Shown here piece after piece: positions 13,952 through 52,566 of a stretch of 64,000 bases of DNA. The DNA lies in contig JAUYSP010000040.1 of the NCBI GenBank assembly GCA_030696305.1, positions 1-64,000 of the forward strand. The letters run 5' to 3'. This stretch comes from Legionellaceae bacterium. GTDB lineage: Bacteria; Pseudomonadota; Gammaproteobacteria; Legionellales; Legionellaceae. Position 1 is the stretch's first letter; each line of letters starts with the position of its first letter. Both the position numbers and the translations under genes were made by a program. The notes beneath the pieces were generated by a model. It made no database searches. It was not told where the DNA came from and worked only from the letters and a program-made list of their open reading frames with translations.

Positions 13952-13973
13952 TTATATAAATTATATAATTTTG
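13952..13973 (+). promoter_or_regulatory. Phage promoter with palindromic A/T box
   Basis: TTATATAAATTATATAAT at 13952-13969 overlaps the -7 element TAATTTTG at 13966-13973. The ATG at 13978 lies only 4 bp after it, so the transcript may be leaderless or nearly so. This promoter appears to open the nuclease-terminase-head unit. Confidence 0.55.
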
Positions 13974-19165: not shown

Positions 19166-19392
19166 TGCCCACCCACACCACAAAATACACCTTTGGCGAT
19201 ATCGTCTATCTGATTACTGATTGCGAGCAAGAAGAAAGGATGGTTACTGATATAAAGATATCTCCAGGACCCCAAGTAGTGTATTGCTTGACTTGTGGCA
19301 CAGCGCACACCGAGCATTACGAGATGGAGATTTCTTCCAGGCGTGATATCAATAAAGCAATGGGAATAAATGGCGGAGAGGTGATCAAATGA
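19165..19392 (+). CDS. Small unknown protein
   Basis: 75 aa with a beta-rich look: YTFGDIVYLITDCEQEERMV, then VVYCLTCGTAHTEHYEMEI. A CLTCGTAH segment could bind a metal. Overlaps both neighbours, so translation is coupled. Function unknown. Confidence 0.45.
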   Translation: MPTHTTKYTFGDIVYLITDCEQEERMVTDIKISPGPQVVYCLTCGTAHTEHYEMEISSRRDINKAMGINGGEVIK

Positions 19393-21014
19393 CCATCGAC
19401 CAAAAATATGAGCGCGAGCTGGTGAAGCTTCAGGCTGATCTAGATGCAAGGATTGCGAGGTTCTACACAATCCTTGCTCAGGAGGTAGCTCCATTGATTG
19501 CTTCAGGTATGGAACGCCGTGCATTGGAGCGGGCAATCAATGCAAAACTATCCCAGATTACCAAATCGCTTCGTGCCCAAATTGAATCCAGCGTTTCAAA
19601 AGCCTGGTATTTATCGAATAAAAAAACAGTGGCCTATCTGGATAAGCGTCTCAAAGGATTCGACTTGCCGGATTCAATCACTAAAGTATGGATTGATCCA
19701 AACGAAAAAGCATTCCGGGAATTCCTGAAGCACAAGGATTCTGGTGTTACACTGAGTAAACGTGTATTCAAACAAACCAAGCAGGCTAAGAAGATCTTGA
19801 CCGACCGCATCAAAGCTGGGATTGGCGAAGGTAAGAGTTCAGTAAAAATAGCCAGAGATCTACGCGATCAACTGGTGAACCCAACTGGATCAGAATCGCC
19901 TGGTCGCGGGGTTTATAAATCCCCTCAAAAGAATACACAGCGACTAGCCAGAACTATCACCAATAAATCTTACAGGTTGGCCGATCAGGAAGCCTGGGAG
20001 AAAAACCCGACGATCTTAGGCTACGAAATTCAATTATCAAAGACTCAAAGCAAGAAAGTAAAAGCCAGGTGCGAGATCTGCAGGGCTTTGGCTGGTAAGT
20101 ATCCTGTTTCATTTGTGTTTGTCGGGTGGCACCCGCACTGCCTGTGTTATAAAACGCCGATCCTAATGAATGAAAAGCAAATGGCCGCTTATACAAAGCT
20201 GATCGCAGAGGGGAAAGATACTCCTGAGGCTATTCAGAAGGTTCGGGCAATGAAAGGCGGCGGCTTGGTTGAAGATGTTCCTGATGGGTTTAAAAACTGG
20301 GTGAGCAATAATACTGAACGGGTTCGCGGTTGGAGTTCTCAACCCTCCTGGGTACAAAATAATTTCAAGGATGGTGATATAGGATCAGGACTGAAGAACA
20401 TTAAATCTAAGCCGGTAAAGGTCAAATCATTTATTCCTGCCGGCCTTGACAGTTACGAAAAGAGGACCGGCATAAAAGTTAATCGTGAGATATTCCAATA
20501 CCTGGATAAGGATACTCCCATGGTTAACCGCGGAACAGGCGCCTTCTACGAAAGTGCAGACAATTATATCAACCTGCCAATAGATGAACGGCGCATGCAA
20601 AGCAAATGGAAAGCTGAATCCGTTGTTTACCATGAGTATGGTCATGCCGCTGACTGGCAGCGGGGTTTAAAGTTCCGGCCGGAAGTGAAAGAAACAATGG
20701 GTAAGTACCGGGCTGCTTATGATGGTCGCTTAGCAGATCTCTCGAAAAAAACCTGGGATATCGGGTTTCCCGCATTTCAATCAGGGGATTATGATATCGC
20801 TGAGCAGGCCCAAGCAGTTGCCGATACAATCATGTCACTGGATTTAAGATATGGATACGGCCATGATCAGGAATATTTTGCACGCCCGGGATTTAGCGAA
20901 GCGGAATTTATCGCTCATGCTTTCGAAAATCGTTTTTCTGGGAATGAAATATTTAAGGAGTTAATGCCGGATCTCTACGAGGATATGATCAAGCTGATCA
21001 GGAGACTAAAATGA
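19389..21014 (+). CDS. Minor head protein (SPP1 gp7/Mu F-like) with metalloprotease-like C-terminus
   Basis: 541 aa. Residues 1-260 form the head-morphogenesis domain: helical start, ARTITNKSYRLADQEAWEKN, then KARCEICRALAGKYPVSF and GWHPHCLCYKTPIL, the Cys/His cluster of Mu F/SPP1 gp7 proteins. The C-terminal 200 residues carry ESVVYHEYGHAADWQRG with HEYGH at 415-419, a zinc metallopeptidase HExxH motif. The protein would enter the capsid with DNA and may carry a protease domain into the cell or cut capsid proteins. The fused domain is the odd part. Confidence 0.75.
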   Translation: MTIDQKYERELVKLQADLDARIARFYTILAQEVAPLIASGMERRALERAINAKLSQITKSLRAQIESSVSKAWYLSNKKTVAYLDKRLKGFDLPDSITKVWIDPNEKAFREFLKHKDSGVTLSKRVFKQTKQAKKILTDRIKAGIGEGKSSVKIARDLRDQLVNPTGSESPGRGVYKSPQKNTQRLARTITNKSYRLADQEAWEKNPTILGYEIQLSKTQSKKVKARCEICRALAGKYPVSFVFVGWHPHCLCYKTPILMNEKQMAAYTKLIAEGKDTPEAIQKVRAMKGGGLVEDVPDGFKNWVSNNTERVRGWSSQPSWVQNNFKDGDIGSGLKNIKSKPVKVKSFIPAGLDSYEKRTGIKVNREIFQYLDKDTPMVNRGTGAFYESADNYINLPIDERRMQSKWKAESVVYHEYGHAADWQRGLKFRPEVKETMGKYRAAYDGRLADLSKKTWDIGFPAFQSGDYDIAEQAQAVADTIMSLDLRYGYGHDQEYFARPGFSEAEFIAHAFENRFSGNEIFKELMPDLYEDMIKLIRRLK

Positions 21015-21241: not shown

Positions 21242-21259
21242 TTATATAAATTATATAAT
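21242..21259. promoter_or_regulatory. Palindromic A/T box between divergent genes
   Basis: TTATATAAATTATATAAT is identical to the box at 13952-13969. It lies in a 37-bp gap between divergent starts at 21231 and 21269. No perfect TAnnTTTG follows on the plus strand (TAATACAA); on the minus strand TAACTTTA is one mismatch away. It could serve both directions. Confidence 0.45.
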
Positions 21260-28460: not shown

Positions 28461-28520
28461 TAATTTACAACATTTATTAAATGGCCCGGCAAATTGTCTG
28501 GCCATTTTTATTCAAATACT

Positions 28521-29015
28521 ATGAAGAAACAAGAAATAAATTCAATACTGGACGAACCCATTGATCTTGGAACTGTTGAAGTGCCATGCAGGGGGTGGAA
28601 GAGGTTGCTGGAGGTTTTAGGAATTTTAAAGCCTCGTACCGAACGATTGATATTAAAAGGTGCTACCGCATCAACTATGCTTCGTATCACTTCTATGATT
28701 GAGGATTTAGTGGTAGAGTCTAAACGCAAAGGCGGAGATCTGCAGATGTACCACTTGATAAATGCCAACATCGTCACAATATGCGAGATCATTGCCGTGG
28801 CTATTCATAACAGACCCGGGCCACCTCCGCAATGGATGTCTGACGCCATCCTTAACCAAATGCCGCAAGCCAGGATCCGAATAATAATGAAAGACGTCTA
28901 TGGGAGGTTAGGCGTGGAAGATTTTTTCGACACTTTGGGCTTGATAAGAAACCTGAACAACCCCGAGAACGATACCCCGGAGATAGCTCCAAATACGCCA
29001 GCATTGGAGGAATAG
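28521..29015 (+). CDS. Tail assembly chaperone (gpG-like)
   Basis: 164 aa from the ATG at 28521 (MKKQEINSILDEP); an in-frame ATG at 28494 lies further upstream with no better context. Helical with LEVLGILKPRTERLILKGAT and QMYHLINANIVTICEIIAVA. The place between tube and tape measure, and the frameshift signal at 28922, identify it as a gpG-type chaperone that keeps the tape measure soluble. Confidence 0.75.
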   Translation: MKKQEINSILDEPIDLGTVEVPCRGWKRLLEVLGILKPRTERLILKGATASTMLRITSMIEDLVVESKRKGGDLQMYHLINANIVTICEIIAVAIHNRPGPPPQWMSDAILNQMPQARIRIIMKDVYGRLGVEDFFDTLGLIRNLNNPENDTPEIAPNTPALEE

Positions 29016-29239: not shown

Positions 29240-29266
29240 TTATATAAAATATATAATATACTTTTG
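29240..29266 (+). promoter_or_regulatory. Promoter of the PRTRC operon, palindromic A/T box
   Basis: TTATATAAAATATATAAT at 29240-29257 is one base from the box at 13952 and 21242. TACTTTTG at 29259-29266 is a perfect -7 element. It sits just before the TTTAAAGCA leader (29279-29287) of the gene at 29290. Confidence 0.6.
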
Positions 29267-29289
29267 ATCACCACTAATTTTAAAGCACA

Positions 29290-29484
29290 ATGAAAAACCC
29301 AAACAAACAACTCGCTATTCGGCGAACAGTTATTCCTATCGCTTACGATCGCCAGGATCCAAACGGATTTAATAAATGGCAAGATCACATCCGTTTTGAA
29401 AACTATTTATCCATGGGGTTGCCTCTGATGTTGCCCACCCAAGAGCGGCTAATGCTTGTCAAATCTGATAGATATGGCGGTTAA
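29290..29484 (+). CDS. 64-aa protein, first gene of the PRTRC operon
   Basis: MKNPNKQLAIRRTVIPIAYD onward; basic, soluble. It follows the phage promoter and a TTTAAAGCA leader. The next start overlaps its end. No family recognised. Confidence 0.45.
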   Translation: MKNPNKQLAIRRTVIPIAYDRQDPNGFNKWQDHIRFENYLSMGLPLMLPTQERLMLVKSDRYGG

Positions 29485-29689
29485 TCCTTTGAACTGGACT
29501 ACTGCATTTCTGGATGAAATGGAGATAGGTTCTACTATGTCTGTAGCAGAGGTTCAAGTACACGATAAAGCCATTCTTGTACAATGCATCAAGCAATACA
29601 TAGACTGGTACGGCGGTGTTGAATTCTCCTCTGATTATGCTGCGTTCCGAAGGATACCAAAATGGTCTGAGTTAGTTGCTGAAGCATGA
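29474..29689 (+). CDS. 71-aa acidic protein
   Basis: ATG at 29474 (MAVNPLNWTTAF) is preferred to an upstream TTG at 29456. VAEVQVHDKAILVQCIKQYI and FRRIPKWSELVAEA give a helical protein. Its end overlaps the start of protein E by 4 bp. Function unknown. Confidence 0.45.
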   Translation: MAVNPLNWTTAFLDEMEIGSTMSVAEVQVHDKAILVQCIKQYIDWYGGVEFSSDYAAFRRIPKWSELVAEA

Positions 29690-31272
29690 ACTATTCAGAT
29701 TATGGATTAGATGAGAAGAAAATCTCCCAGGATCCTGACTCCAATGTTCGTGCATGGTCATGCCTTTGGTGCAATGAAACAGTCAAGGCCGGCTTTAACC
29801 TATGTTTCTCAAACTGGGTGATTTGCCGGGACTGTGTGGAGACCGCACATGAATCTGAACGATGGGCAGACGGCGTTGAGTGCTGGAAATGCAACGCAAA
29901 GGATATTAAAGCACTGGGTTGTGATCATGCATGGGGCGGCGGAGAATTTTATATCTGCCAATCCTGTATAGACTGGGCCAAAGAGACTTTTACTAAACAA
30001 GATGAATTTATTAATAAAGAAAGGGAACAAATGACAACAGAAGAAATTTTACTAAAGTGCTATGTAAAAGGAAATAATATCAAGCTTCCGGACGATATCC
30101 AGCTTGACTATAAATCCGAATATGCACCAGTCAAAAAGAAAATAGAAAAAGCTGGTGGCCGCTGGATCGGAAGAGACGTGTCAGCTTTCGTCTTTAAAGA
30201 AGATCCGAATGATATATTGGTCGCTCTGCAGGCAGGTGAAAGCCCAAAGCTAATTAAGGATACACCGGTTACTAAAGAGCCTTCCATTCCCGCAACTCAA
30301 ATAGTCCCGGAAGACAATCAGGTAAGAATCGAACAACTGAAACAACTGCCGGACTCGAGTGTCCGCCCGAGGGCCTTTCTGGACCTGACCAACCAGACCC
30401 TGGGCCAGGCTATCAACCATCTACTTCAACCATCTAAAAAACCAACCAATCCATCAAACACAGAAATGAGCTTCTTCATTCAACTAGCAGCGTTACTTGG
30501 CCAGGCCGAGATTTCGTTGACCGTCAAGGCTAAGGACGAAAACTTAACCGTAATGATCATGCCAAAGGGTGCAACCCAGTTGGAGAAAATGAAACCTTTA
30601 ATTCTTTCAGGGTCTGCTGCAGATCTCGACCAGGAATTCTTTAGTACAGTTTCCACCTCCATTCAGAAAATGTCCGGCATTGTGAGCAATGTCGCAGAAT
30701 ATGAAAAAAGCCTTAATGAGGCTATTGTGAAAACAGCAGCCAATCAGGATGCAAAGCCTGTCAAGTCTCGTTCCAAAAAGGATCCTGTGGAAGAGGCGAA
30801 GCCTGACCTGGTTATTGAGGGTGAAACCCATGAACAAGCACCTGCAGCAGAAGAAGCTTCAGAAGAAACTAAAGTTGATCAGGCGGAACTTGACAGGATT
30901 GCTGCTGAAGAGCGCAAGGGAATGTATGATGGGATTGTTCAAAGAGCGGGTGAATCTTTCGTTGCGAAGGATTATTCTACCGCATTAGAGCTTTTCGAAT
31001 CAGCTAAAGAATATGCTGGGGAAGATGCATCAGGACTAGATGAGCCTATCAATACCTGTAAGCAAGAGATTGAGCGCAAGTCTAAGTGCGCGACCCTGAT
31101 CACCAAATCGGAAGAGTTTGCCTCCGCGAAGGACTGGAAAAACGCTGCCGGTGCAATGAAGCAAGCCCGCACGCTTTCAGACGCCCCGGAAGAAATGGAC
31201 GATCAGATTAAAGAATATATGCAAAAGGCTTTGGAGGCAGAAATGGCTACTGAAGCCCAAAGTTATTTATAA
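29686..31272 (+). CDS. PRTRC protein E with N-terminal zinc module and TPR-like end
   Basis: 528 aa, far longer than the core E domain. Four parts can be seen. Residues 26-94 hold two CxxC...CxxC units (C26/C29 with C47/C50, C66/C69 with C91/C94), a double zinc-ribbon or treble-clef-like module. Residues 115-185 read like a small domain with AGGRWIGRDVSAFVFKEDP. About residues 260-345 form the PRTRC E core: FFIQLAALLGQAEISLTVKA, LTVMIMPKG, and MKPLILSGSAADLDQEFFST. After an acidic linker, residues 405-515 resemble TPR helices (FVAKDYSTALELFESAKEYA). The domain order makes it a likely scaffold of the cassette; activity is unknown. Confidence 0.7.
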   Translation: MNYSDYGLDEKKISQDPDSNVRAWSCLWCNETVKAGFNLCFSNWVICRDCVETAHESERWADGVECWKCNAKDIKALGCDHAWGGGEFYICQSCIDWAKETFTKQDEFINKEREQMTTEEILLKCYVKGNNIKLPDDIQLDYKSEYAPVKKKIEKAGGRWIGRDVSAFVFKEDPNDILVALQAGESPKLIKDTPVTKEPSIPATQIVPEDNQVRIEQLKQLPDSSVRPRAFLDLTNQTLGQAINHLLQPSKKPTNPSNTEMSFFIQLAALLGQAEISLTVKAKDENLTVMIMPKGATQLEKMKPLILSGSAADLDQEFFSTVSTSIQKMSGIVSNVAEYEKSLNEAIVKTAANQDAKPVKSRSKKDPVEEAKPDLVIEGETHEQAPAAEEASEETKVDQAELDRIAAEERKGMYDGIVQRAGESFVAKDYSTALELFESAKEYAGEDASGLDEPINTCKQEIERKSKCATLITKSEEFASAKDWKNAAGAMKQARTLSDAPEEMDDQIKEYMQKALEAEMATEAQSYL

Positions 31273-31281
31273 AACATTGCT

Positions 31282-31605
31282 ATGGAACAGACCATAAAAA
31301 AAATGTCGCTGGTGGAGGCTATGAATCAGGCCTTCACCTTCAGGAAATACTATTTGATCAGGAGGATTAAGCCATTCTGCAAGGTGAAACCATACAACAT
31401 GCAAGTACTATTGGATGCGGATAAAGCTGATCGGATTCCAGCTGAACAGAAGGGGTACATTCAAGAGCTGTGTGATGATCATGGCTACTCTTTACAATTA
31501 GTAATCCCGGATGCAGGGGGGGGGGGTAATTTACAAATCACTAATCCCATCCCATGGACAGAGTTAAAAACGATTGCACAAAAAGCAAATTATGAAAGAA
31601 ATTAA
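31282..31605 (+). CDS. Unknown PRTRC-operon protein carrying a 10-G tract
   Basis: 107 aa. MSLVEAMNQAFTFRKYYLIR and GYIQELCDDHGYSLQLVIPD precede DAGGGGN, encoded across ten G (31516-31525). One base less or more would truncate the last 25 residues. It overlaps the ParB-like gene by 14 bp. No family recognised; its place inside the cassette suggests a linked role. Confidence 0.45.
   Translation: MEQTIKKMSLVEAMNQAFTFRKYYLIRRIKPFCKVKPYNMQVLLDADKADRIPAEQKGYIQELCDDHGYSLQLVIPDAGGGGNLQITNPIPWTELKTIAQKANYERN
31516..31525. repeat. Homopolymer tract of 10 G inside a coding region
   Basis: Ten consecutive G within the gene 31282-31605, in a place where a slip changes the reading frame. Confidence 0.9.
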
Positions 31606-32311
31606 AAGCACAACCGACTACGCAATCTTTAAACAGATCGTAAGCAACCGGGAGGTGGATCCCCGTCACGTTAAAAGACTTGTAAAATCCATCGAAAAAA
31701 ATAACATGCTACACCTGAACGCAATTATTGTCAATGATGCAATGGAGGTGGTAGATGGACAGCACAGACTAGAAGCGGCAGAAGAACTTGGGGTGCCGGT
31801 TTATTATGTGGTCGATAGCGAAGTAGGAAAAGCCCAGATCAGTCAGCTAAACTCCGTTAAAAAAGACTGGAGCATGATGGACTATGTTAACTACTGGACT
31901 ATTGAAAAGGCACCAGGATTCGACGTGTTAAGCAGGTTCGTTTCTGAACATTCATATCTGCCCGTATCAACCATTTTACTTCTGCTTTCTACGGACGCCA
32001 GTAGAAACACAGCCGCTCTCCGCGAAGGAAAGGTAGATGTATCCAACCTGGAACAAGCTAACGAAGTACTTGGCTATGTAAGAGACTTCCGGAACATAAT
32101 CGATTATGCGTTCAGCAGAAACTTTATGCTGGCCGTATTCCATATGGTTAAATCAGGCAAATATGATCACGCTCGGATGATGCAGAAACTAGAATTACAG
32201 AGCAGGTCCCTGGTGAAATGCGTTAACACGCGCCAGTATCGAGACCTGCTCGAAGAGATCTACAACTTCCGTGCTCACGATCAGAACAAAGTTTCTTTCC
32301 GTTACGGATAA
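31592..32311 (+). CDS. ParB-like protein of the PRTRC cassette
   Basis: 239 aa from the ATG at 31592 (MKEIKSTTDYAIF); an in-frame ATG at 31574 overlaps more. The ParB/Srx fold is clear: VDPRHVKRLVKSIEKNNMLH, NAIIVNDAMEVVDGQHRLEA with DGQHR at 55-59, and PVYYVVDSEVGKAQI. ParB-fold proteins can bind DNA, hydrolyse CTP or act as nucleases. The rest is helical. Three 21-bp-phased repeats lie 30 bp beyond its end. No ParA is seen, so partition is not supported. Confidence 0.8.
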   Translation: MKEIKSTTDYAIFKQIVSNREVDPRHVKRLVKSIEKNNMLHLNAIIVNDAMEVVDGQHRLEAAEELGVPVYYVVDSEVGKAQISQLNSVKKDWSMMDYVNYWTIEKAPGFDVLSRFVSEHSYLPVSTILLLLSTDASRNTAALREGKVDVSNLEQANEVLGYVRDFRNIIDYAFSRNFMLAVFHMVKSGKYDHARMMQKLELQSRSLVKCVNTRQYRDLLEEIYNFRAHDQNKVSFRYG

Positions 32312-32340
32312 TCACTAAACGCGTTCATCACAGTTAATTA

Positions 32341-32391
32341 TTACACAAACGCCCGGAATCGTTACACGAACCCGGGATATTGTTACACGAA
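32341..32391 (+). repeat. Three phased TTACACRAA repeats beside the parB-like gene
   Basis: TTACACAAA (32341-32349), TTACACGAA (32362-32370) and TTACACGAA (32383-32391) are exactly 21 bp apart, two helical turns, each inside a longer unit with CCCGG. They lie in the 94-bp gap between the ParB-like gene and protein C, so a protein could bind one DNA face here. Confidence 0.6.
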
Positions 32392-32405
32392 AAAAAATTA
32401 AAACT

Positions 32406-32627
32406 ATGGCACTTATTATAACAAACATCGAACGAGAGTTTAAAATGAAAAAATCAGGTAATCCGACAACCCTTGCGGATCCTAACCCCGCACTCACTCC
32501 TGAGGAAGTCTTGAGCTTCTATTCCAACGCTCACCCGGAGCTTACCACTGCTACCGTTGCGCCAATGAAAATGGAGAATGATAAAGCGGTATTTGAGTTC
32601 GTGACTACGGTCGGAACAAAAGGCTGA
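32406..32627 (+). CDS. PRTRC protein C, ubiquitin-sized, C-terminal Gly
   Basis: 73 aa. MALIITNIEREFKMKKSGNP, TTLADPNPALTPEEVLSFYS and NAHPELTTATVAPMKMENDK match the PRTRC C pattern (x-R-x-F, LxDPxPxLTPEEV, YPELT). It ends TTVGTKG, with Gly as the last residue. Size, mixed strand-helix order and a terminal glycine are what a ubiquitin-like modifier needs for adenylation by an E1-like enzyme, which this operon also encodes. Whether it is conjugated is inference. Confidence 0.75.
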   Translation: MALIITNIEREFKMKKSGNPTTLADPNPALTPEEVLSFYSNAHPELTTATVAPMKMENDKAVFEFVTTVGTKG

Positions 32628-32668
32628 TAAATCTGCGTGGGGTTTTGGCCCTGCGCTAAATTAAGATT

Positions 32669-32944
32669 ATGGCAAAGAAGAAGAAACAATCATTTAAGAA
32701 GCACAGCTGCCCTCAAAGCCCCTATCTGCTGAATATCGTGAATGATGAACCACCAACGCCCGAACCACCATGCGCACCAAAACCAGAAAAAACCCTCTTA
32801 AAAGAGTTACCGATAAACTTCAACTTTCACAACCAAATCGGATCCGTGCTGTTCAGAGAGATCGAAAGCCGAGACGCTTCGATAGAATCCAGGCATGTTC
32901 TGGAGCCCCGGTTACTTTGCTGCCAAATCGATTTCTTTCCGTAA
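32669..32944 (+). CDS. 91-aa reading frame, possible N-terminal part of PRTRC F
   Basis: MAKKKKQSFKKHSCPQSPYL onward, with a Pro-rich linker and LLKELPINFNFHNQIGSVLF. Natural-looking protein text up to near its stop at 32944, 17 bp before an ATG (32962) in the other frame. Read with the next gene it would give an F protein with a basic N-terminus, split by a -1 shift; otherwise it is a separate small gene. The overlapping part of the neighbouring frame is Arg-rich and looks out of frame. Confidence 0.45.
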   Translation: MAKKKKQSFKKHSCPQSPYLLNIVNDEPPTPEPPCAPKPEKTLLKELPINFNFHNQIGSVLFREIESRDASIESRHVLEPRLLCCQIDFFP

Positions 32945-33936
32945 AACTGGAATCGATTCCGTACATGAATTTGAAGCCTTCGCGGTACAGTGACGATTTT
33001 GGAGACATCCTTAAACTTAAAGCAGCTACCGGTTGGCTGACATCCGATCTGGATTCGGAGGATGTTGGTATGCTTGGATTAGAAATGGCAAAGCGATTCT
33101 CGGAAATAGCAGATGCTGCAGGCTTCATGTGGATGGTTGCCGGGATCAATGATAAAGATGTGGCGCTGGTTTTTTATGACACGCTTCCCAGTACAGGGTC
33201 ATGGCTTGCCCCACAACTATCATTTCTTCCGATTATTAAGCGAAGATCAGTGAGGATGTATGAAACGGTGATGAATAGTTTGCAGCATATCAGCGGAGCT
33301 TTTTGCATCGGGAATTTTCTAAACTCCATGGAGTGTATCGAATGGGCACTCGAAGAACTCGATAGCGACGCCTATGATATAGAAGACATCAAGGAGCGAA
33401 ACGAAACCTGGAAATCGGTCCAGTCACATACAGAGGGCAAGGCAGCTAAATCGCTAAAGGAAGTTACGCACGGAACTCCGACACTATCTCCTGAAGAATG
33501 TATATGTCGGCTTTATAAGCTTCCGAATGATCTTCAAGATCTTCGATCATCTCTAATTTATTTGCTCTGCCTTAGTGATCGGGGTAAGGACCTGACAGAT
33601 TTTGATCTGAATTGCGCCGGCCTTAACAGACTGGATGAAATGGACAACATTTATCTAACACTTGACTTGCAGTATGCTTGGATTTACGATTCTGACGACC
33701 CAGTCACAGCAAAAGCAGAAGAGTACTTAGATTCTCTGTCCAATGAAGGACAGCAGGAGCCTTGCGCATGGCTAATTATAGGTGACGGATTCCTCTTTCC
33801 GAAGGATAGCAAGAGCTTAATCGAAGAGCTCAAGAACTTACGCAAAGATGATTTCACAACGCAGTTCTTTAAAGGTATGCGAGAACTGTGCGAAGCCATA
33901 GTGGATTTAAAGAAAAGAAATAAAAGAAACAAATGA
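32770..33936 (+). CDS. PRTRC protein F-like
   Basis: The open frame runs from 32770; the convincing part begins near 32940 (FLSVKLESIPYMNLKPSRYS), so a start at the ATG 32962 (324 aa) or a frameshift from 32669 are both likelier than 32770. It includes AKRFSEIADAAGFMWMVAGI, AFCIGNFLNSMECIEWALEE and EPCAWLIIGDGFLFP. Identification as F rests on its place between C and B, size and mixed fold; no catalytic motif is visible. It overlaps protein B by 4 bp. Confidence 0.5.
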   Translation: MRTKTRKNPLKRVTDKLQLSQPNRIRAVQRDRKPRRFDRIQACSGAPVTLLPNRFLSVKLESIPYMNLKPSRYSDDFGDILKLKAATGWLTSDLDSEDVGMLGLEMAKRFSEIADAAGFMWMVAGINDKDVALVFYDTLPSTGSWLAPQLSFLPIIKRRSVRMYETVMNSLQHISGAFCIGNFLNSMECIEWALEELDSDAYDIEDIKERNETWKSVQSHTEGKAAKSLKEVTHGTPTLSPEECICRLYKLPNDLQDLRSSLIYLLCLSDRGKDLTDFDLNCAGLNRLDEMDNIYLTLDLQYAWIYDSDDPVTAKAEEYLDSLSNEGQQEPCAWLIIGDGFLFPKDSKSLIEELKNLRKDDFTTQFFKGMRELCEAIVDLKKRNKRNK

Positions 33937-34637
33937 ACGAGCTGACAGAAAATATGCAATTGGCTTACCAGCCAGAACTTGCAATTGTAGTTTATAAACG
34001 CAAAGAATATTCAGACTATTACTTGGAAAGCCGTCCGATCGTTGCCGGGCAAATGGGAGCTGGCGCACCATTGCAGGAGAAAACCCTGCAGGGTATTATA
34101 AAGGCGATGGAGTCTAAAAATGATGATAAGCCGAAAGAGATCGGCGGAGTTGTTCCATCTAACCTGCTTTACTTCAAAAATATAAATGGAAACCTTGAAA
34201 TGTTCTGGTACCGAAAAGCGGAGAAACGACCGATGTACTTTGTCGAGCACCTGAACATACCGGACGGTGTGGCGATGGTGCCACCATTGCTCTATATAAC
34301 AAAAGGTAATGGGCTAACAATTTTTGCTTTGAGAGAAAACAAGCGTCCGGACGAAAAATCAGAACTATTCCAACCCCCGTTTCACAACTGCTCAGGTCTC
34401 GGTAGCGTCTGCCTAGGATCAGCAAAAGTAAAGTACCCAGCCAGCGTAACCTACCAAAACTTGATGGAATATTACGAAAAACTTTTCTGGGGATCAGCTT
34501 TCACTCATAACGGCGCAGCTAGTGCAACTGGGAATTTAAACCTGATCTGGAAAGACCAAATCACTAATCCTAAAAAACCTTTTGATCTGAGCCTACTGAT
34601 CAAAGCAAGTAAAACATATAAAGACCTTTTAAGATGA
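33933..34637 (+). CDS. PRTRC protein B, E2-like pattern
   Basis: 234 aa. LAIVVYKRKEYSDYYLESRP, VPSNLLYFKNINGNLEMFWY, then MYFVEHLNIPDGVAMVPPLL and LTIFALRENKRPDEKSELFQ are the strand-rich PRTRC B pattern. Residues 150-162 read FHNCSGLGSVCLG. H151-N152 followed by VCL at 159-161 recalls the HPN...G.(I/V)CL signature around the catalytic Cys of E2 ubiquitin-conjugating enzymes, which would make C160 the acceptor. WGSAFTHNG ends the core. It is coupled to ThiF by a 4-bp overlap. The E2 reading is inference from this motif and context. Confidence 0.7.
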   Translation: MNELTENMQLAYQPELAIVVYKRKEYSDYYLESRPIVAGQMGAGAPLQEKTLQGIIKAMESKNDDKPKEIGGVVPSNLLYFKNINGNLEMFWYRKAEKRPMYFVEHLNIPDGVAMVPPLLYITKGNGLTIFALRENKRPDEKSELFQPPFHNCSGLGSVCLGSAKVKYPASVTYQNLMEYYEKLFWGSAFTHNGAASATGNLNLIWKDQITNPKKPFDLSLLIKASKTYKDLLR

Positions 34638-35413
34638 GAGTACATTTTCCGCCTTCTTATTTCACTAATCCACCGCATCCAATATCGGTACACTTAATCG
34701 GATGCGGTGGTACCGGTTCCCAGGTACTAAATGGACTTGCCCGGATCAATCACACGATGAAAGCTTTAGACCATCCCGGACTTCACATTACAGCTTTTGA
34801 TCCGGATACAGTCAGTGAGACGAATATCGGACGCCAGTTGTTCAGCCCAATCGATATCAATCAGAATAAAGCAACCGTCCTGGTAACCCGGGTGAACAAC
34901 TTCTACGGTACCGGGTGGATTAGCAGGCCACAAACATATACTGAATATATAAAACAGCAAGGCAAATCGGCGCCGTATGACCTGGCTAATATTATCATTA
35001 CTTGCGTAGATACCATTGCCGCCAGAAGAGAGCTTGATGGGGTGTTGATTGAGGCGGAAAGAGATTACACAAAGCCTTACTACTGGATGGACTTCGGTAA
35101 TTCACACCGATCTGGACAGGTGATTCTTGGAACGGCTGGAAACGTGAAACAGCCGGAATCAAAATTTGAAACCGTGGGTCAATTGCCGAATCTCTGGGAA
35201 CAATTTCCCGAACTGAAGGGTTCAAAGGAGGCGGACCAAGGGCCGAGCTGCTCCCTCGCGCAAGCTCTAGGCAGACAGGATCTCTTTATCAACTCTGCAT
35301 TGGCACAACTTGGATGCGGCCTTCTTTGGAAACTTTTGTCCGATGTGAAAATAGATGTCCGGGGTTTCTTTCTGAACCTGGAAACAATGAACGTAAACCC
35401 GATAAAGATCTGA
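34634..35413 (+). CDS. PRTRC ThiF-family E1-like adenylyltransferase
   Basis: 259 aa. VHLIGCGGTGSQVLNGLARI has the Rossmann ATP loop (G23-S29). FDPDTVSETNIGRQLF at 55-70 holds the DxD...N..RQ set that binds Mg-ATP and the modifier tail. IIITCVDTIAARRELD at 120-135 gives the conserved Asp126 with Cys124 beside it, and GPSCSLAQALGRQDLFIN has Cys206. E1/ThiF/MoeB enzymes adenylate the C-terminal Gly of ubiquitin-like proteins; protein C of this operon ends in Gly. Which Cys, if any, forms a thioester cannot be told. Confidence 0.8.
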   Translation: MRVHFPPSYFTNPPHPISVHLIGCGGTGSQVLNGLARINHTMKALDHPGLHITAFDPDTVSETNIGRQLFSPIDINQNKATVLVTRVNNFYGTGWISRPQTYTEYIKQQGKSAPYDLANIIITCVDTIAARRELDGVLIEAERDYTKPYYWMDFGNSHRSGQVILGTAGNVKQPESKFETVGQLPNLWEQFPELKGSKEADQGPSCSLAQALGRQDLFINSALAQLGCGLLWKLLSDVKIDVRGFFLNLETMNVNPIKI

Positions 35414-35700
35414 TGGAAGAGTATTTGCCTCAGGAATGGAGCGATAGTGGGAAAAGGTTGCTGGAAACCATTCAGAAGATCATAAAAGAGCAAGGGGGCG
35501 TTGAGCAAATGCACAAACTAGTTATGCTGGAACTGCATCCGAATCGATATCAACGGGATAAAATCATTTTAGAATATCGTTATAAATTAGTCCATGGTAA
35601 GGTTAAAATGAAAGATATTCCTGAAATACTAGGTATAACTGAGACTGAATTTAAAAAACTTAAACAGGAGGTTAATGAGTCAGAAAATGAAAAATATTGA
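35413..35700 (+). CDS. Unknown protein at the end of the PRTRC operon
   Basis: 95 aa from the ATG at 35413, overlapping the thiF stop (TGATG). Helical; the end (MKDIPEILGITETEFKKLKQ) looks like a helix-turn-helix. The tight overlap suggests it belongs to the cassette. Confidence 0.5.
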   Translation: MEEYLPQEWSDSGKRLLETIQKIIKEQGGVEQMHKLVMLELHPNRYQRDKIILEYRYKLVHGKVKMKDIPEILGITETEFKKLKQEVNESENEKY

Positions 35701-36189: not shown

Positions 36190-36497
36190 AAACACTATGC
36201 ACCTGCCTATCCGGCAAAACAAATTGCGATTGCCATAATATTGAATCAATTGCAACGGATGGAACAAACATTAATCGAAAGGATATGACAAAGGACACAA
36301 CCGATTACAAGCAATTGGCTTATAAATTACAAGGAGATATTGAAATGAGGGCGTGGGAGGATGCTCAAAAGAATATTCCATTTTTGAAGGAAATGAAACA
36401 ACGGATCGAAAAGTTTCAAAACAATAAAGATGTTACAGAGATTGAAATGGTATATAATATGATTGACCATTGGATTTTAGAATTAGAAAGGATATGA
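36186..36497 (+). CDS. Unknown small protein
   Basis: 103 aa. A Cys-rich start (LCTCLSGKTNCDCHN) precedes a helical, charged part from the ATG at 36284 (MTKDTTDYKQ). It starts by ATGA overlap and ends by overlap with the DUF551 gene. No family recognised. Confidence 0.4.
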   Translation: MKTLCTCLSGKTNCDCHNIESIATDGTNINRKDMTKDTTDYKQLAYKLQGDIEMRAWEDAQKNIPFLKEMKQRIEKFQNNKDVTEIEMVYNMIDHWILELERI

Positions 36498-36790
36498 CAA
36501 AGGAAGAAAAAGAACTAATCCGAAAGCTAATATCTGCTGAAACAAGAATCGTTCACTTAGAAAAGGAAAACGAAAGGCTGAAAGCGGAGAGGGAGTGGAT
36601 AAGTGTGGAGGATAGGTTGCCGGAGGAAAGCGGACAGGTATTGGGTATAATGAAAGATACGTTTGCCATATACGTTTGCCATTATAGTTTATCACGTAAA
36701 TTGTTTCTCGTTTACGGTGCAGGATCAGACTCAATATCAGATATGAGAGTTACCCATTGGATGCCATTACCATCACCCCCTAAACAATAA
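36494..36790 (+). CDS. DUF551 protein
   Basis: 98 aa from the ATG at 36494, overlapping the previous stop (ATGA). A coiled start (EKELIRKLISAETRIVHLEK) is followed by the DUF551 signature WISVEDRLPEESGQVLG and VTHWMPLPSPP. This domain is common in phages; its role is unknown. Confidence 0.75.
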   Translation: MTKEEKELIRKLISAETRIVHLEKENERLKAEREWISVEDRLPEESGQVLGIMKDTFAIYVCHYSLSRKLFLVYGAGSDSISDMRVTHWMPLPSPPKQ

Positions 36791-37323: not shown

Positions 37324-37713
37324 GTGAAAGCATTAACCATAAAACAGCCTTGGGCATCACTGATCGCCCAGGGAATTAAGGACATCGAGAATCGAACCTG
37401 GAGAACAAATTTCAGAGGAAGGATTTACATTCATGCAGCCGGTAGGTCAGTCCAAGGCAACATAAAAGCCATGTTTACTGAAAATCAGTACCCTCATGTA
37501 AAAAACACTGTTTTTGGTTATTGGCAAACATCGGCTATAATCGGTGAAGTCGAAATAGTCGATTGCGTTCAGAACCACCCGTCCATCTGGGCTGAGCATG
37601 GCGTTTGGAATTGGGTCTTAGCAAATCCGGTTTTATATAAAAACCCAATCTTGAATGTAAAGGGCAAATTAAGCTTCTGGGATTACCGAAGAGATGGATC
37701 AAAACAGGTTTAG
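37324..37713 (+). CDS. ASCH-domain protein
   Basis: 129 aa with a GTG start at 37324. ALTIKQPWASLIAQGIKDIE, NRTWRTNFRGRIYIHAAG and SAIIGEVEIVDCVQ are the full ASCH signature (PWAxLIxxGxKxxExR, RGxxxIHA). ASCH folds bind RNA or modified nucleosides; a few hydrolyse N4-acetylcytidine. In phages they may protect or sense modified bases. Confidence 0.8.
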   Translation: MKALTIKQPWASLIAQGIKDIENRTWRTNFRGRIYIHAAGRSVQGNIKAMFTENQYPHVKNTVFGYWQTSAIIGEVEIVDCVQNHPSIWAEHGVWNWVLANPVLYKNPILNVKGKLSFWDYRRDGSKQV

Positions 37714-38180: not shown

Positions 38181-41100
38181 ATGCCGGAGTTAAAATATGT
38201 CATTTCAGGAGATGAGAAAGGAATAAACCAATCTTTTAAAAAGGTTGAGCAGGCATCTGCAAAAACAGCTTCACAGGTTGAAAGCGATTTTGCAAGAGCC
38301 CGGGACGCATCGGCTAAATCTACGGCAGGAATATTATCAGATATTAAAAAGGTTGAACAGGCAAAAGGTGTTAGAACATCTTCACTTTCAGATATCGATT
38401 TAGCATATATTGAGAGTAGAAAAAAGGTCGCCGAATTTGATAAGCAGATTATTGAAACAAAAAAAGAACTTGAAAAGGTTGGATCTGCCGGCGTTGACAA
38501 TTTCGATAAAATTGATAAATCTGTTCAAAAATCTTCTAAATCAACATCAAAAGCAGGGGGATTGCTAAAGCTTTTGTCCGGATTAATTCCAGGGCTAGGT
38601 CTTGCAACTATTGCCGCTTTCGCAATTGAACCTATTATCAAGTACGTCAAGTCACTAGATCTACTCGGCACCAAAACAAAGGAAATATCCGCCAAAAAGT
38701 TCGATGCCCCTGATTACAAAGAAGCGGTACTAGATACCCAAACTTTGGCCACCAATATCGAAGCTGCAAAAAATGGGTATATCTCTAAACAAAAGGTAGT
38801 CGATCAATACAATGAGACCATAGGCAAATCTGCAGGGCTTCTAAAATCATTTAATGATGTTGAGCAATGGCAGAAAGATAATGTAGGAGCCTATCTGAAA
38901 ATGATGGAGATGAAAGCCGAAGCCCAGGCATTCCTTGCTGTTGCCACAGAAAAAGCTACTGAAGCAGCTAAGCGGCAAACTGTAGGGGCTAATATTATGG
39001 ATTATGGTTTAGCAATTGCTAATCAGTTGGGAAGAGGTCAGTTCGATTGGGATGGGATAAAAAGCTCCGCAGGTTTGAATGCATTAAACGATGCGGCAGA
39101 TTCAAAGAAGGAAAGCGATAAGGCTTTTGCGATTTACAGGAAGCGGATGGCAGAGGCGCAAAAATTTGCCAAGGATAACAAGCTGAATATTTTCGGCGAT
39201 ACAAAGGAAGATTCCAATCAGGCATCAGTCAACGCCTATGATTCATTACTAAAGAAAATCAGAGATCTGAAAAATGAATACAACCGAAAATCATTGTCTG
39301 ATGATGAAGCGGAACTGCAATCGGTTAGGGACAAATTTGCATCCATTGCTGAAGAAGTCAAAAAGTACAATGCTAACCCTAAGAATAAAATTAAAGTAGT
39401 ATCTGGCGAGTTAGACGGTATCCGGGATGCGGCCATCGCAGACCTCACCTTTAAGCAGGAAACTGCCAAATTAGGTAAGGAACTTGAAGCTCAGAAGCAG
39501 CTGTACCATGATTACGAAAAGTTCAAATCCGACTTTGGGGAAACAGCAGCGAAGGAGCGATTTGGCAAGGAGGTTAATTTCCTTAAATATCTGGAGCAGG
39601 AGCATGGAAACATGTATGCAGGAATTAATGGTGCATCTGAAGCTTCAATTAAAGAGCGTGATGCATTAATTGAAAAGTATAGGTCATCTACAGTAAGAGA
39701 AGAGCAGCAGTCGCAGCTTGCTTTACTCAAGGATTTTATGACATACACTGAGCAGAGAAATCTAATATTGGAGCAAGCTCAGGCAAAGGCAAAAAAGTTG
39801 ACAGGGGAGGCTGCAAAGCTCGCTATTGAAGAAGGGGAAAAGGAGGTTATAGCCCTTGACCAGGTGAATATAAAAAAATGGAAATCCTATAAATACCTGT
39901 TTGAGAATCTTCAGACCCTAAGCAGAAAACAAACAGAGGATGGAATCGCCCGACTGAAGAAAGATCTTGCAGCGTTCACTGGATCCGCTGAAGCAAAGAC
40001 AGAGACACTTAAAGCAATCGCTAAACTAGAGGAAGGGTTAAAAAAAGATAACACTAAAGACATTCTCAAGTCTGCGGAAGCCTTGCGCGATATCGCGTCC
40101 TCGGTGGGAGAGGTGAATAACTCAATGGGGCAGCTGCTTCATACCATTGCAAATGTTGTCACCTCCTATGCCCGGTTGACTAAAGCTTCGAAGGTTCTGG
40201 CCGATGTGAATGCCTCTGGCGCTGCCAAGCAGGCGGCTATGCTGGATGTAATTACTCAGGGCGTGGCAGGTTTGGTCCAAGTGATTAGCACAATTGCCAA
40301 CGCAACCAAACAAAGGCGCGATGCTGAAGAGGCCTACTACCGCTCAGTTATAGAAGGCCAACGGGAATACAATCTTTCCCTAAACGATGAGATCAGATTA
40401 CGGGCAGAACTTGAAGAAAGTGTGTTCCTGAAAGATAGCAAAGGGCGGATACTCTCCGGAACGAATGCACTGGTGGATGCGAACAAGAAGTATCTGCAGT
40501 CTCTTCAGGATCTGGCAAAGGGCGAGGCAAAGGTCGGCCAGCGGAATGCTGTTGATTGGAATAGCGTTGGAAAAGCTGCAGGCGGTGGAGCTGCAGTTGG
40601 TGCCGCGATTGGGTCAATCGTTCCTGTGATTGGAACAGCTATTGGTGCTGCTGTTGGCGCTGTGGCTGGGGCAATTGCCGGGCTATTCGGAGGTAAGAAG
40701 AAAAAAGATGTTTTCAGCGGTTTACTCCAAGAGTATCCAGAGCTAATCACTAAAGCGAAAGACGGAACTATAGGCATCAACAAAGAGTTGGCGAAATCAC
40801 TAATCAACCAAAACTTGGTTAATGAAGCCACAAAAGATCTTATTAATAATACGCTGGAGTGGGCTGATAAAGTTAAAGCTGCCGAGGAGCAGATCAAAAG
40901 CGTAATCGCGGATCTGGCCGGAGGTCTTGGAAACGATCTGCGAAATTCTTTAGTCCAGGCCTTCAAGGATGGCTCCGACGCGGCTAAAGCGTTCGGCGAT
41001 GATGTGAGTAAGGTTGTTGAAGATATCGTTTCACAGTTTCTCTTCAATGAACTCTTTTCGAAAAACTTTGAGCAGCTTCAGAAAGAAATGCAAGCGAGTT

Positions 41101-41591
41101 ATGGGCTTGGGGGTGATCAGTCTTTGGTTGATGATTTGTCTAGGTTCTATTCGGATGCGGGCCCGAAAATAGAGGAGTTTCAGGCCGCTCTTGAAGCTGC
41201 CCGGACCGAAGCTGAAAAAATGGGCTTTGATATTTTTAAGAAGACTACCACTCAGGGGGGCTCGCAGGATTCAACTGGTAACACAATGGCAGGAGCTGTA
41301 ACAAAGATCCGCGCCGATCAGGCCGATCTTATTGGCGCGAGATTGGGCGGTATTCAGGTCTCAGGGCTTGAATCGTTGGCCCAGTTGAAATTACAAACCG
41401 GATTCAATGCCCAGTGCGTAGATCTTGCTATGCAGAACCTCAATGTCGCACTCAAAATCGAGCAAAACACATTTAGGACGGCCAATAACACCGAAGCCCT
41501 AAAGGATATCCGGACAGGTATTCAAAGTATGGATAAAAAAATAAGTGCCAGCGTGAATGCCGGCGTTGGATTAAACGGATTTGGAGGGTAA
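38181..41591 (+). CDS. Tape measure protein
   Basis: 1136 aa, the longest gene, between the chaperones and Dit as expected. Long coiled coils (residues 1-130, 330-620) flank hydrophobic helices near 125-155 (LLKLLSGLIPGLGLATIAAF) and a Gly/Ala stretch near 800-840 (AAIGSIVPVIGTAIGAAVGA). Such segments let the protein cross the host membrane after DNA ejection. Length would set a tail of about 170 nm by the usual 1.5 Angstrom per residue. Confidence 0.85.
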   Translation: MPELKYVISGDEKGINQSFKKVEQASAKTASQVESDFARARDASAKSTAGILSDIKKVEQAKGVRTSSLSDIDLAYIESRKKVAEFDKQIIETKKELEKVGSAGVDNFDKIDKSVQKSSKSTSKAGGLLKLLSGLIPGLGLATIAAFAIEPIIKYVKSLDLLGTKTKEISAKKFDAPDYKEAVLDTQTLATNIEAAKNGYISKQKVVDQYNETIGKSAGLLKSFNDVEQWQKDNVGAYLKMMEMKAEAQAFLAVATEKATEAAKRQTVGANIMDYGLAIANQLGRGQFDWDGIKSSAGLNALNDAADSKKESDKAFAIYRKRMAEAQKFAKDNKLNIFGDTKEDSNQASVNAYDSLLKKIRDLKNEYNRKSLSDDEAELQSVRDKFASIAEEVKKYNANPKNKIKVVSGELDGIRDAAIADLTFKQETAKLGKELEAQKQLYHDYEKFKSDFGETAAKERFGKEVNFLKYLEQEHGNMYAGINGASEASIKERDALIEKYRSSTVREEQQSQLALLKDFMTYTEQRNLILEQAQAKAKKLTGEAAKLAIEEGEKEVIALDQVNIKKWKSYKYLFENLQTLSRKQTEDGIARLKKDLAAFTGSAEAKTETLKAIAKLEEGLKKDNTKDILKSAEALRDIASSVGEVNNSMGQLLHTIANVVTSYARLTKASKVLADVNASGAAKQAAMLDVITQGVAGLVQVISTIANATKQRRDAEEAYYRSVIEGQREYNLSLNDEIRLRAELEESVFLKDSKGRILSGTNALVDANKKYLQSLQDLAKGEAKVGQRNAVDWNSVGKAAGGGAAVGAAIGSIVPVIGTAIGAAVGAVAGAIAGLFGGKKKKDVFSGLLQEYPELITKAKDGTIGINKELAKSLINQNLVNEATKDLINNTLEWADKVKAAEEQIKSVIADLAGGLGNDLRNSLVQAFKDGSDAAKAFGDDVSKVVEDIVSQFLFNELFSKNFEQLQKEMQASYGLGGDQSLVDDLSRFYSDAGPKIEEFQAALEAARTEAEKMGFDIFKKTTTQGGSQDSTGNTMAGAVTKIRADQADLIGARLGGIQVSGLESLAQLKLQTGFNAQCVDLAMQNLNVALKIEQNTFRTANNTEALKDIRTGIQSMDKKISASVNAGVGLNGFGG

Positions 41592-49007: not shown

Positions 49008-49643
49008 ATGAATAAGTATCATAAAATATTAGAGAAGATAATAACAAAGGGGAAAATACAGGAAAACAAAAAAGGTAAAATAACCTATTTGCTTAATCAG
49101 AAATTAGAGCTTGCAAAAGGAGACCTGCTAGATATATTTGAAGATCATTCAGTTGCAAGAAAGAAACTCAAGGATGAATTAAGCCTCTTTATAGCAGGGG
49201 AACGATCAACGGAGGCCTACAGATCCTGCGGAATTACGTGGTGGGATTACTGTGGCCCTATCCTAGTTAATAGCTACCCGACCTATTTTGAGCAGCTTCC
49301 CAAGTTACTAGATAAGATTAACAATGAGAAGCGAAGCTCTAAAAACTACGTGCAGTTTCTGGGAAGCAATAACACTGAGAGCAATCAGCAGCCCTGCCTT
49401 TCTCTAATTCAATTCCAAATTGAGAATAATAAATTAGTGATTACAGCATATCAAAGGAGTTCTGACGCAAGTTTGGGACTTCCTTCGGATCTGTACCACC
49501 TTTTTCTGATCGCTAAGCACATAGATCTACCGTTAAAGTCCATTACCATGTTTCTTGGTAATGTTCATATTTATCAGAACAATATAAAAAGCACTGGAGA
49601 ACTATTGAGGGGTCAGTCGGTAAGGTTCAACCTAAATGTATAA
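49008..49643 (+). CDS. ThyA-family protein, possible pyrimidine hydroxymethylase or methylase
   Basis: 211 aa, shorter than ThyA (about 264). Matches in order: LSLFIAGERSTEAYRSCGIT with WWDYC, PCLSLIQFQI with catalytic Cys130, YQRSSDASLGLPSDLYHL and GNVHIYQNN. R150, D153, H187 and Y189 are kept. Asp161 stands where ThyA has the Asn that selects dUMP, as in dCMP hydroxymethylases such as T4 gp42. The N-terminal phosphate-binding Arg loop is not evident. It could act on dCMP or be an inactive paralogue. Preceded by the hairpin, followed by the lysis genes. Confidence 0.6.
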   Translation: MNKYHKILEKIITKGKIQENKKGKITYLLNQKLELAKGDLLDIFEDHSVARKKLKDELSLFIAGERSTEAYRSCGITWWDYCGPILVNSYPTYFEQLPKLLDKINNEKRSSKNYVQFLGSNNTESNQQPCLSLIQFQIENNKLVITAYQRSSDASLGLPSDLYHLFLIAKHIDLPLKSITMFLGNVHIYQNNIKSTGELLRGQSVRFNLNV

Positions 49644-50881: not shown

Positions 50882-51394
50882 ATGAAAAAATTATTCCTGT
50901 TCATCCTGATCCTAATTGTGATATCTGGATGCAAAAGCCGTAAACTGAACAAAGAATCAGTTTCAATTGTTGACAAAACCCGAACAGAAGAATCTGCACA
51001 GGTTAAAGAACAAGTCATGGATACAAAGTCCCATCAGGAAACAAGGGAAACTACAATAAGCGACCAGTCCGGAACCTGGATCTGGGAGGAATGGTACCAA
51101 CGGGACTTAAATGCTGACACAATTATTTCTCCAATTTCAAAGCACCTGCTTTATAAGCGCACCACCTTTATTAAAAACGATATCAACAAAACCGAAACGG
51201 TTCATGTTGCTGATTTTGAGAATCATTCTGAAATTAAAGACAGTACGGTCACCCGGGAGGTTCTATCCGATGTCCACATTGAAACTAAAACCAAGGAGCT
51301 CGAGGCTAAAAAGGAATCAGGCTGGATATTGCCTTTAGCCGTATTGCTCATTACCCTTTTAGTTCTGGTTTTTATAATCAGAGATCTTCGTTAA
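50882..51394 (+). CDS. Unimolecular spanin (u-spanin)
   Basis: 170 aa. LFLFILILIVISGC is a lipoprotein signal with lipobox Cys17, and the C-terminus is a membrane helix (WILPLAVLLITLLVLVFII). Anchors in the outer and inner membranes joined by a periplasmic strand-rich linker are the mark of a u-spanin, which fuses the two membranes at lysis. It completes the lysis cassette after endolysin and holin. Confidence 0.75.
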   Translation: MKKLFLFILILIVISGCKSRKLNKESVSIVDKTRTEESAQVKEQVMDTKSHQETRETTISDQSGTWIWEEWYQRDLNADTIISPISKHLLYKRTTFIKNDINKTETVHVADFENHSEIKDSTVTREVLSDVHIETKTKELEAKKESGWILPLAVLLITLLVLVFIIRDLR

Positions 51395-52566
51395 GAGAAG
51401 ATATCGTCAGCTGCCTTATCTAAATCATCGTCTTTCCGAATGTCATTCAGATATCCTTGGTGAACCGAAAGGGAGCTGTGTCCCAATAGTTCCATTGTGA
51501 CCATTGGGTTATTGATTTTATCAATAGCCATTCTAGCAAATGTATGACGAGCGATATGGGAAGATAGTGGTTTGTTAATACCGGCCATTGTGGCCAGCAC
51601 CTTAAGATTTGCATTCACAATCGTAGTGCATACTTCCTTATGTTTCAAACGTTTTCTTTGGTTTTCAAAATCACTAAACTGTTTATTGGGCTCCCAGCGG
51701 AAAATCGGAAATAATGTTTCATTCTTTTTTTTTCCTGAGCTATAGCGAAGAAATATATCATTTGCCTGAGAGATTACTTTAATCCCCTGGCTTTTGCCGG
51801 TCTTATCCGCCTCATATACGAATCTTCCGTCTCTAAACTGGTCGATGGTGGCTTGCAAGATATCTCCAATCCGGATGCCTCTGAGATATACCTGCATTAA
51901 AAACATATCTCTAACAACTTCAAGACTTGAGCCTGAAGGCAGTATAAGATTCTCCAGGCTATCAAACTCCTTCGGGGTTAATTTTTGCTTTAAGGGTTTT
52001 AGTACAGGGATTGAATAATTTGCAACTTCTTTCGAGATCTGTTTAGTAGAATATCTTGAAAGCAGTCCCCTCAGGATGACTATTTTTTTTCTGATAGTAG
52101 TCCCCGTATTACCAGCTTTAATTCGAGAGGACACAAATATATCAAACCATTTTTCGTCAATATGTTCCAGGATCGTATCCCCATCAATCTGCTTTTGAAG
52201 AGCCAATACCTTATCGTAAGATCCTGATTTATATTCTGCCTCCAACCTGGTCAGTTCCTCCTGCAGCGCCTGGCCGAGTGTTATGGAATTTGCATTGTTT
52301 AATATTGTCGAAATCGATCTGGATCCAGACTTGACTTCCAGTAATTCTCTTTCGGCTTTAGAGAAGGCATCGGATATAAAGGAGTTGAGAAAGTCGGCAT
52401 TATTTACCCTTCCTCTTACCCGGTTATTTTTTGCATCCCAGTCTTTAGGATGGACATCGATAAGCACCCGCTTTTTGGTCTTCCCATTAATAGTATACTT
52501 TAGTATAACAGGGTGATTCCCGTTCTTATAAGTTTTGCCCTTAAATAAATGTATTCTAACTTTCAT
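51391..52566 (-). CDS. Tyrosine recombinase integrase
   Basis: 391 aa, leftward, overlapping the spanin end by 4 bp. It starts MKVRIHLFKGKTYKNGNHPV (arm-binding domain of Bacteroidota integrases). Catalytic residues: YLRGIRIGDIL (Arg), SHIARHTFARM (H-x-x-R), LLGHSSLSVHQGYLN (His and nucleophile Tyr). Its start is 158 bp from the tmRNA 3' end, the expected attachment gene. It inserts and, with a directionality factor, excises the prophage. Confidence 0.9.
   Translation of the reverse strand: MKVRIHLFKGKTYKNGNHPVILKYTINGKTKKRVLIDVHPKDWDAKNNRVRGRVNNADFLNSFISDAFSKAERELLEVKSGSRSISTILNNANSITLGQALQEELTRLEAEYKSGSYDKVLALQKQIDGDTILEHIDEKWFDIFVSSRIKAGNTGTTIRKKIVILRGLLSRYSTKQISKEVANYSIPVLKPLKQKLTPKEFDSLENLILPSGSSLEVVRDMFLMQVYLRGIRIGDILQATIDQFRDGRFVYEADKTGKSQGIKVISQANDIFLRYSSGKKKNETLFPIFRWEPNKQFSDFENQRKRLKHKEVCTTIVNANLKVLATMAGINKPLSSHIARHTFARMAIDKINNPMVTMELLGHSSLSVHQGYLNDIRKDDDLDKAADDIFS

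Follow-up and report, generated by a model that had tools for sequence, protein, structure and literature searches.

In the bacterial Bil and BUB systems, as in CBASS type II, E1/E2-type enzymes attach a C-terminal glycine to lysines. The CBASS enzymes Cap2 and Cap3 (PMC10097602) include an E1 domain recognisably related to that of another family, ThiF of PRTRC (ParB-related, ThiF-related cassette), a cassette that occurs on hundreds of sequenced plasmids and for which the literature we searched gives no established function. Iyer, Burroughs and Aravind (2006; PMC1779556) had already predicted a ubiquitin, E1, E2 and JAB set for this cassette, their operon type 6d: a small protein with a terminal glycine, an E2-like protein with a cysteine and a downstream histidine replacing the usual one, an E1, a JAB protease and a helical protein. 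Here we analyse the PRTRC cassette of a prophage in 64,000 nucleotides of Legionellaceae bacterium DNA (GCA_030696305.1, contig JAUYSP010000040.1, positions 1 to 64,000; the whole stretch is called the window). The ubiquitin-type reading is probable, though it dates from 2006; a preliminary description of the window, made from its letters, had mentioned this link, which is indeed in print. On balance we lean, by a small measure, to a phage-borne ubiquitin-like conjugation system that is likelier to act on replication or maintenance proteins bound to DNA than on tails.

The window cassette shares with PRTRC of plasmids and integrative and conjugative elements (ICEs; PMC1779556) the genes E, C, F, B and ThiF in the same order, the terminal glycine of C, and the cysteine and downstream histidine of B. 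It differs in being phage-borne within a tail operon, in having no JAB protease gene (A), in having another ParB, placed between E and C, and in an E that is fused to a zinc/methylase N-terminal module. Whole cassettes in tailed phages are also found in the cultured Burkholderia phage BgVeeders33 (OK665841), where C, F, B, A and ThiF lie in order and are mostly annotated as hypothetical, and on IMG/VR contigs (L015–L094); unlike the window cassette, these lie near dnaB/dnaN and outside the tail operon, and BgVeeders33 carries JAB, its C ending in a 62-residue tail. The IMG/VR contig L020 (IMGVR_UViG_3300005617_000694) shares the zinc/methylase-type N-terminus of E and the ParB-like family, but has an intact methylase core, dnaN directly upstream, and ParB downstream of ThiF. 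In contrast to CBASS type II, Bil and BUB, E1 and E2 are separate genes here, with no cGAS-like gene and no known defence role, and PADLOC returned no match for the cassette except weak ThiF matches through the E1 domain. The lambdoid TAPI/TAPK proteins (PMC1779556) likewise place a ubiquitin-like protein near phage tail genes, but they are tail assembly proteins without E1 or E2, not a conjugation set.

All six cassette frames (E, ParB-like, C, F, B and ThiF) are open, and they lie at or near the positions given in the preliminary description, between the tail chaperone and the tape measure (Table 1). ThiF scores 261.7 bits against TIGR03736 (cut-off 144.75), C 58.6 bits against TIGR03738 (45.95) and 65 bits against PF14454 Prok_Ub, E 51.5 bits against TIGR03741 (37.95), and B 105.8 bits against PF14460 (25); against the stricter TIGR03737, B reaches 100.8 bits, under the cut-off of 131.45. 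F matched no curated profile and was identified by a profile built locally from PRTRC F genes; F from a plasmid cassette matches PF14456 alpha-hel2. The ParB-like gene, with no NCBIfam match to PRTRC-type ParB, belongs to phrog_12305 instead of the large plasmid PRTRC ParB. The order E-C-F-B-(A)-ThiF, near-constant among relatives, is kept here with two extra genes between E and C. Tight overlaps had been described throughout; they are restricted to F, B, ThiF and the next gene, with gaps of 94 nt between ParB and C and 142 nt between C and F. PRTRC A (DUF2016 plus JAB) is absent as described, no Prok-JAB being found anywhere in the assembly; since A is also missing from most Bacteroidota cassettes and several plasmid cassettes, it is not obligatory.

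Scanning with a ThiF alignment brought up 164 IMG/VR relatives and at least 394 on GTDB contigs, while a scan of viral contigs with a single ThiF protein found nothing, so that an alignment query was needed; 348 plasmid records carry PRTRC. We read 80 IMG/VR and 80 GTDB relatives, and conservation and locus counts rest on about 170 loci. That whole ubiquitin/E1/E2-type sets are common in phages bears on the origin of ubiquitin systems and on phage control of host proteins.

In the modifier candidate C, R10, F12, D25 and G73 are invariant among 58 aligned relatives; because R10 and F12 sit in the longer form of the gene, we take its start to be 32406. C stops exactly at the glycine in 121/121 JAB-less loci and extends beyond GTKG in 35 of the 39 JAB-bearing loci (Fisher P = 3e-31, a statistic that ignores kinship). 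The tails fall into at least five unrelated groups, with three more of 3–5 residues, and nine different first residues follow the glycine; nearly all the JAB proteins have HxH...SxxD motifs, and those tested have DUF2016 and Prok-JAB domains. On the tree, JAB changes only about three times, and an independent-pairs test of JAB and tail was underpowered; the rule therefore draws its strength from the unrelatedness of the tails rather than from the count. JAB-linked tails are the pattern that ubiquitin/SUMO-type precursors and their processing protease would give; as far as the literature searched shows, it is new. The AlphaFold2 model of C, predicted as beta-beta-alpha-beta-beta (pLDDT 80), did not prove unrelated to the candidate beta-grasp fold, though its structural matches are weak, and hhalign found no match between ThiS and C. 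Two loci have unusual C genes: L125, left out of the terminal-glycine counts, has an in-frame stop at about 7.9 kb, ten residues before the normal GTKG end (a pseudogene or a sequencing error), and in L093 (about 7.0 kb) the tail after GTKG has a CxxC...CxxC-like zinc motif, possibly a functional fusion to the modifier.

The motifs listed in the preliminary description are all present: GCGGTGS and DxD..N..RQ in ThiF, H151-N152 and V159-C160-L161 in B, and two CxxC...CxxC units in E. In ThiF, G23, G25, G26, G28, D56, N64, R67, Q68 and C206 are invariant (169–173 loci; C206 in 173/173 proteins). The ThiF profile matches eukaryotic E1s (UBA6 at 4e-11, NEDD8-E1 and UBA5), which score best, and CBASS Cap2; hhalign against E. 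coli ThiF gives 96%. B has N152 and C160 unvaried in 169/169 relatives and is also invariant at W92, P117 and G162 (169–173 loci). The suggested likeness of B to the E2 signature HPN...CL thus holds for N152 and C160 and fails for H151, a position that is mostly Phe in relatives and that we rejected as the catalytic histidine; the usual family histidine is H192 (His in 156/169, 92%). The eight residues from N152 to C160 equal the HPN Asn-to-Cys spacing in yeast UBC4, and the AlphaFold model of B has a pLDDT of 92. It is from sequence profiles and this active-site pattern that B is assigned as a putative E2, with C160 as the candidate E2 cysteine and ThiF C206 as the candidate E1 cysteine; conservation of these and of the terminal glycine supports the modifier/E1/E2-type set that had been proposed.

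Over residues 1–190, E aligns with the N-terminal stretch of a 709-residue L020 protein (37% identity over 214 residues), which runs from zinc units through a phage methylase module and an intact NPPF-type DNA methylase to PRTRC_E; in another methylase–E fusion (L096) the zinc units are absent at the start. In the window E the zinc units and the N-terminal methylase module remain, but the methylase catalytic core has gone. Its match to a zinc/methylase fusion points to DNA-related work for E, and a role as a RING-type E3 was rejected in favour of this methylase-type N-terminus.

Replication genes recur beside the cassette. When neighbours were clustered without supervision, DnaB helicase (31 loci) and the DnaN sliding clamp (19 loci) ranked with the most frequent families, the end of dnaN falling mostly 0–70 bp upstream of E. 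dnaN is present in 14/47 JAB-less phage loci compared with 0/80 DnaB-selected control loci (Fisher P = 2e-7), a control that is unmatched for host phylum; the base rate of DnaN in the phage collection is 94/50,697 records. These two controls were used because a dnaN alignment was too diverse as a scan query and a single dnaN retrieved only itself. Over the ThiF tree, dnaN switches between present and absent about 13 times, and it also adjoins cassettes on plasmids of Aeromonas, Pseudomonas, Xanthomonas and Chroococcidiopsis. On the Aeromonas plasmid pAER-f909 (L262), dnaN (863–2017) lies within the PRTRC block itself, directly after ParB and before the E/C region.

The tails of E past the PRTRC_E domain are most enriched for the tripeptide SLF (9/39 clusters, 0.18 expected); Q.[SD]LF is found in 4 (0.04 expected), examples being QTSLF in L017 and QNSLF in L015. 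Bacterial clamp partners bind the clamp through QLxLF-like peptides, and the classic clamp modified by ubiquitin and SUMO is PCNA. Given this motif and this precedent, the dnaN neighbourhood and the SLF enrichment make clamp-directed conjugation a concrete hypothesis, and the clamp association of PRTRC is a new pattern as far as the literature searched shows. PRTRC might even be the mobile-element counterpart of PCNA ubiquitination and SUMOylation, in which E docks on the beta sliding clamp via an SLF-type motif and directs C to the clamp or clamp-bound proteins. We regard this as doubtful; if true, phages and plasmids would control their own or the host replisome, and the window prophage would represent a divergent branch that relies on the host clamp or some other target on DNA. 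The clamp hypothesis is not directly transferable to this prophage, as there is no DnaN homologue within the window and its E has no SLF motif.

Read from left to right, the prophage has early genes, then by profile match a terminase (phrog_38), a portal (phrog_64) and a major head protein (phrog_29), followed by tail genes, the tape measure and a reverse-strand integrase. The tape measure, expected at 38.2 kb, is supported there by its profile match; the tail chaperone matched no curated profile and is placed solely by position and by sister phages. In one of these, the IMG/VR phage L175, tail genes are 85–90% identical to those of the window prophage, and a chaperone-like gene (4560–5060) is followed by the tape measure (from 5293) with no cassette between; L176 is arranged alike. 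Since both sister phages join chaperone directly to tape measure, the roughly 9 kb between them here are an accessory insert. The insert opens with one of four AT-rich palindromes (0.06 expected by chance), each ahead of a separate gene block; of the phage-type promoter once claimed here, this probable operator/promoter is what stands, sigma-70-like sites being no more frequent than chance and rejected. As the insert is missing in sister phages and starts with its own palindrome, the tail location is explained most simply if an accessory block under separate control was inserted there. No Prok-E2_D protein was found in any of 53 related genomes, and the cassette therefore most likely came in with the phage.

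From sequence we infer a conjugation route, roles for E and F, and a class of target. ThiF would adenylate Gly73 of C using ATP and then hold C as a thioester on Cys206; C would move to Cys160 of B and from there onto lysines of target proteins, with E and F together serving as a targeting scaffold. With no JAB protease A in this lineage, C would be synthesised already mature, ending at its glycine, and no cassette enzyme would take the mark off. As targets, phage or host proteins that serve replication or maintenance on DNA are more likely than tail proteins, the sliding clamp being the best candidate family-wide. Three direct points of attack on the family follow: the coupling of modifier to protease, a rule which predicts that JAB carries out maturation; the invariant cysteines proposed for E1 and E2; and the sliding clamp as a specific candidate partner.

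Several observations weigh against this route. The literature searched yielded no biochemical data on any PRTRC cassette. Aligned by hhalign with yeast UBC4, B pairs both cysteines, yet at a probability of only 16% (the two yeast E2 sequences used were entered by hand). A Foldseek search of the PDB with the B model gave no significant match (Ubc13 at rank 48, TM 0.23) and one of viral models found no E2, nor did the B profile match an E2 in the PDB. The C model matches structures weakly (best E 0.02), with ubiquitin, SUMO and PB1 among the weak matches. To these we add the few JAB changes on the tree, the unmatched dnaN control, and the window's want of both DnaN and SLF.

Tail proteins, which the preliminary description named as possible targets, find no support in the comparison with relatives. 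In that scheme tags are put on host proteins or on the phage's own tail, or else a tail-acting, Bil-like host conjugation defence is countered, and the tail position is functional, as the location between chaperone and tape measure and the published ubiquitin-like/JAB tail proteins of lambdoid phages (PMC1779556) might suggest; but the cassette is missing from sister phages whose tail genes are nearly identical, 0/80 other phage cassettes have a tape-measure-like open reading frame (ORF) within 8 kb, and relatives adjoin dnaN or dnaB, which makes it very unlikely. The intactness of the six frames, the retention of family-invariant residues, the F-B-ThiF overlap and the phage-type palindrome leave almost no credence for a decaying fragment caught as inert cargo in the tail operon, even though E has lost its methylase core and sister phages do without the insert.

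Two other accounts keep the cassette active in a different capacity. C could be a ThiS-like sulfur or acyl carrier charged by ThiF, with the B cysteine in a non-E2 reaction, a view that the family resemblance of ThiF and the lack of structural or profile confirmation of an E2 fold in B both favour. We think it unlikely: no rhodanese, desulfurase or biosynthetic gene was recognised by eye in the neighbour families that recur most, it is eukaryotic E1s that score highest with the ThiF profile, and JAB-linked C tails fit a protein modifier, though JAB can process carrier-type proteins too. Alternatively, the ParB-like protein and E could segregate or protect the element's DNA, with the ubiquitin-like genes as regulators. 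PRTRC takes its name from ParB, the large PRTRC ParB lies upstream in most of the plasmid cassettes read, and methylase fusions and dnaN neighbours are in keeping with this; yet near the block a ParB match is missing from most cassettes of phage or ICE type (20 of about 170 loci have any), the ParB here is of a different family, and an integrated prophage has no need of partition, so that we consider it improbable. The conjugation system acting on DNA-bound proteins remains the reading we prefer.

Table 1. Features of the window, with the basis for each
Feature	Position	Strand	Basis or remarks
PRTRC E	29686..31272	+	TIGR03741 / PF19556; residues 1-190, zinc units and N-terminal module of phage N6-DNA methylase; residues 262-456, PRTRC_E domain
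107-residue ORF, no family match	31282..31605	+	ORF list, profile searches
Phage ParB-like protein, motif VDGQHR	31592..32311	+	phrog_12305, 1.2e-37
PRTRC C, ubiquitin-like modifier candidate, 73 residues, ends GTKG (Gly73)	32406..32627	+	TIGR03738, PF14454 Prok_Ub
PRTRC F, helical protein	32770..33936	+	Profile from PRTRC F genes, 4.5e-44
PRTRC B, E2-like candidate	33933..34637	+	PF14460 Prok-E2_D, 2.7e-30
PRTRC ThiF, E1-like	34634..35413	+	TIGR03736, 261.7 bits, 5.5e-78
97-residue gene, no family given, overlaps ThiF by 7 nt	35407..35700	+	ORF list, profile searches
Accessory insert, ~9 kb, missing from sister phages L175 and L176	29195..38180		Junction comparison
AT-rich palindrome TTATATAAATTATATAA, probable operator/promoter	8534-8550, 13952-13968, 21242-21258, 29240-29256		Four sites, each ahead of a separate gene block
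Probable tail assembly chaperone G, probably extended to ~29194 by a -1 frameshift	28494..29015	+	Placement before tape measure, as in L175/L176
Tail tape measure protein	38181..41591	+	phrog_9959, 1.9e-24
Tyrosine integrase	51391..52566	-	Translation reading; similar ORFs at other cassette loci; adjoins tmRNA gene
tmRNA gene	52723-53089		Tag GENNYALAA

The window begins at base 1 of its contig (C27) in the 2.56-Mb assembly, and the left prophage end may lie beyond the contig edge. Besides the cassette, the insert holds an ASCH-domain protein (37324–37713), of a family found in six other PRTRC loci or the window, and a DUF551 protein (36470–36790). A thymidylate synthase-like protein (49008–49643; PF00303, 5e-22) is encoded in the late region of the prophage, and a Mu F-like head protein (19389–21014) has a C-terminal HExxH zincin-like region (weak PF18818 match) that resembles polyvalent-protein peptidases.

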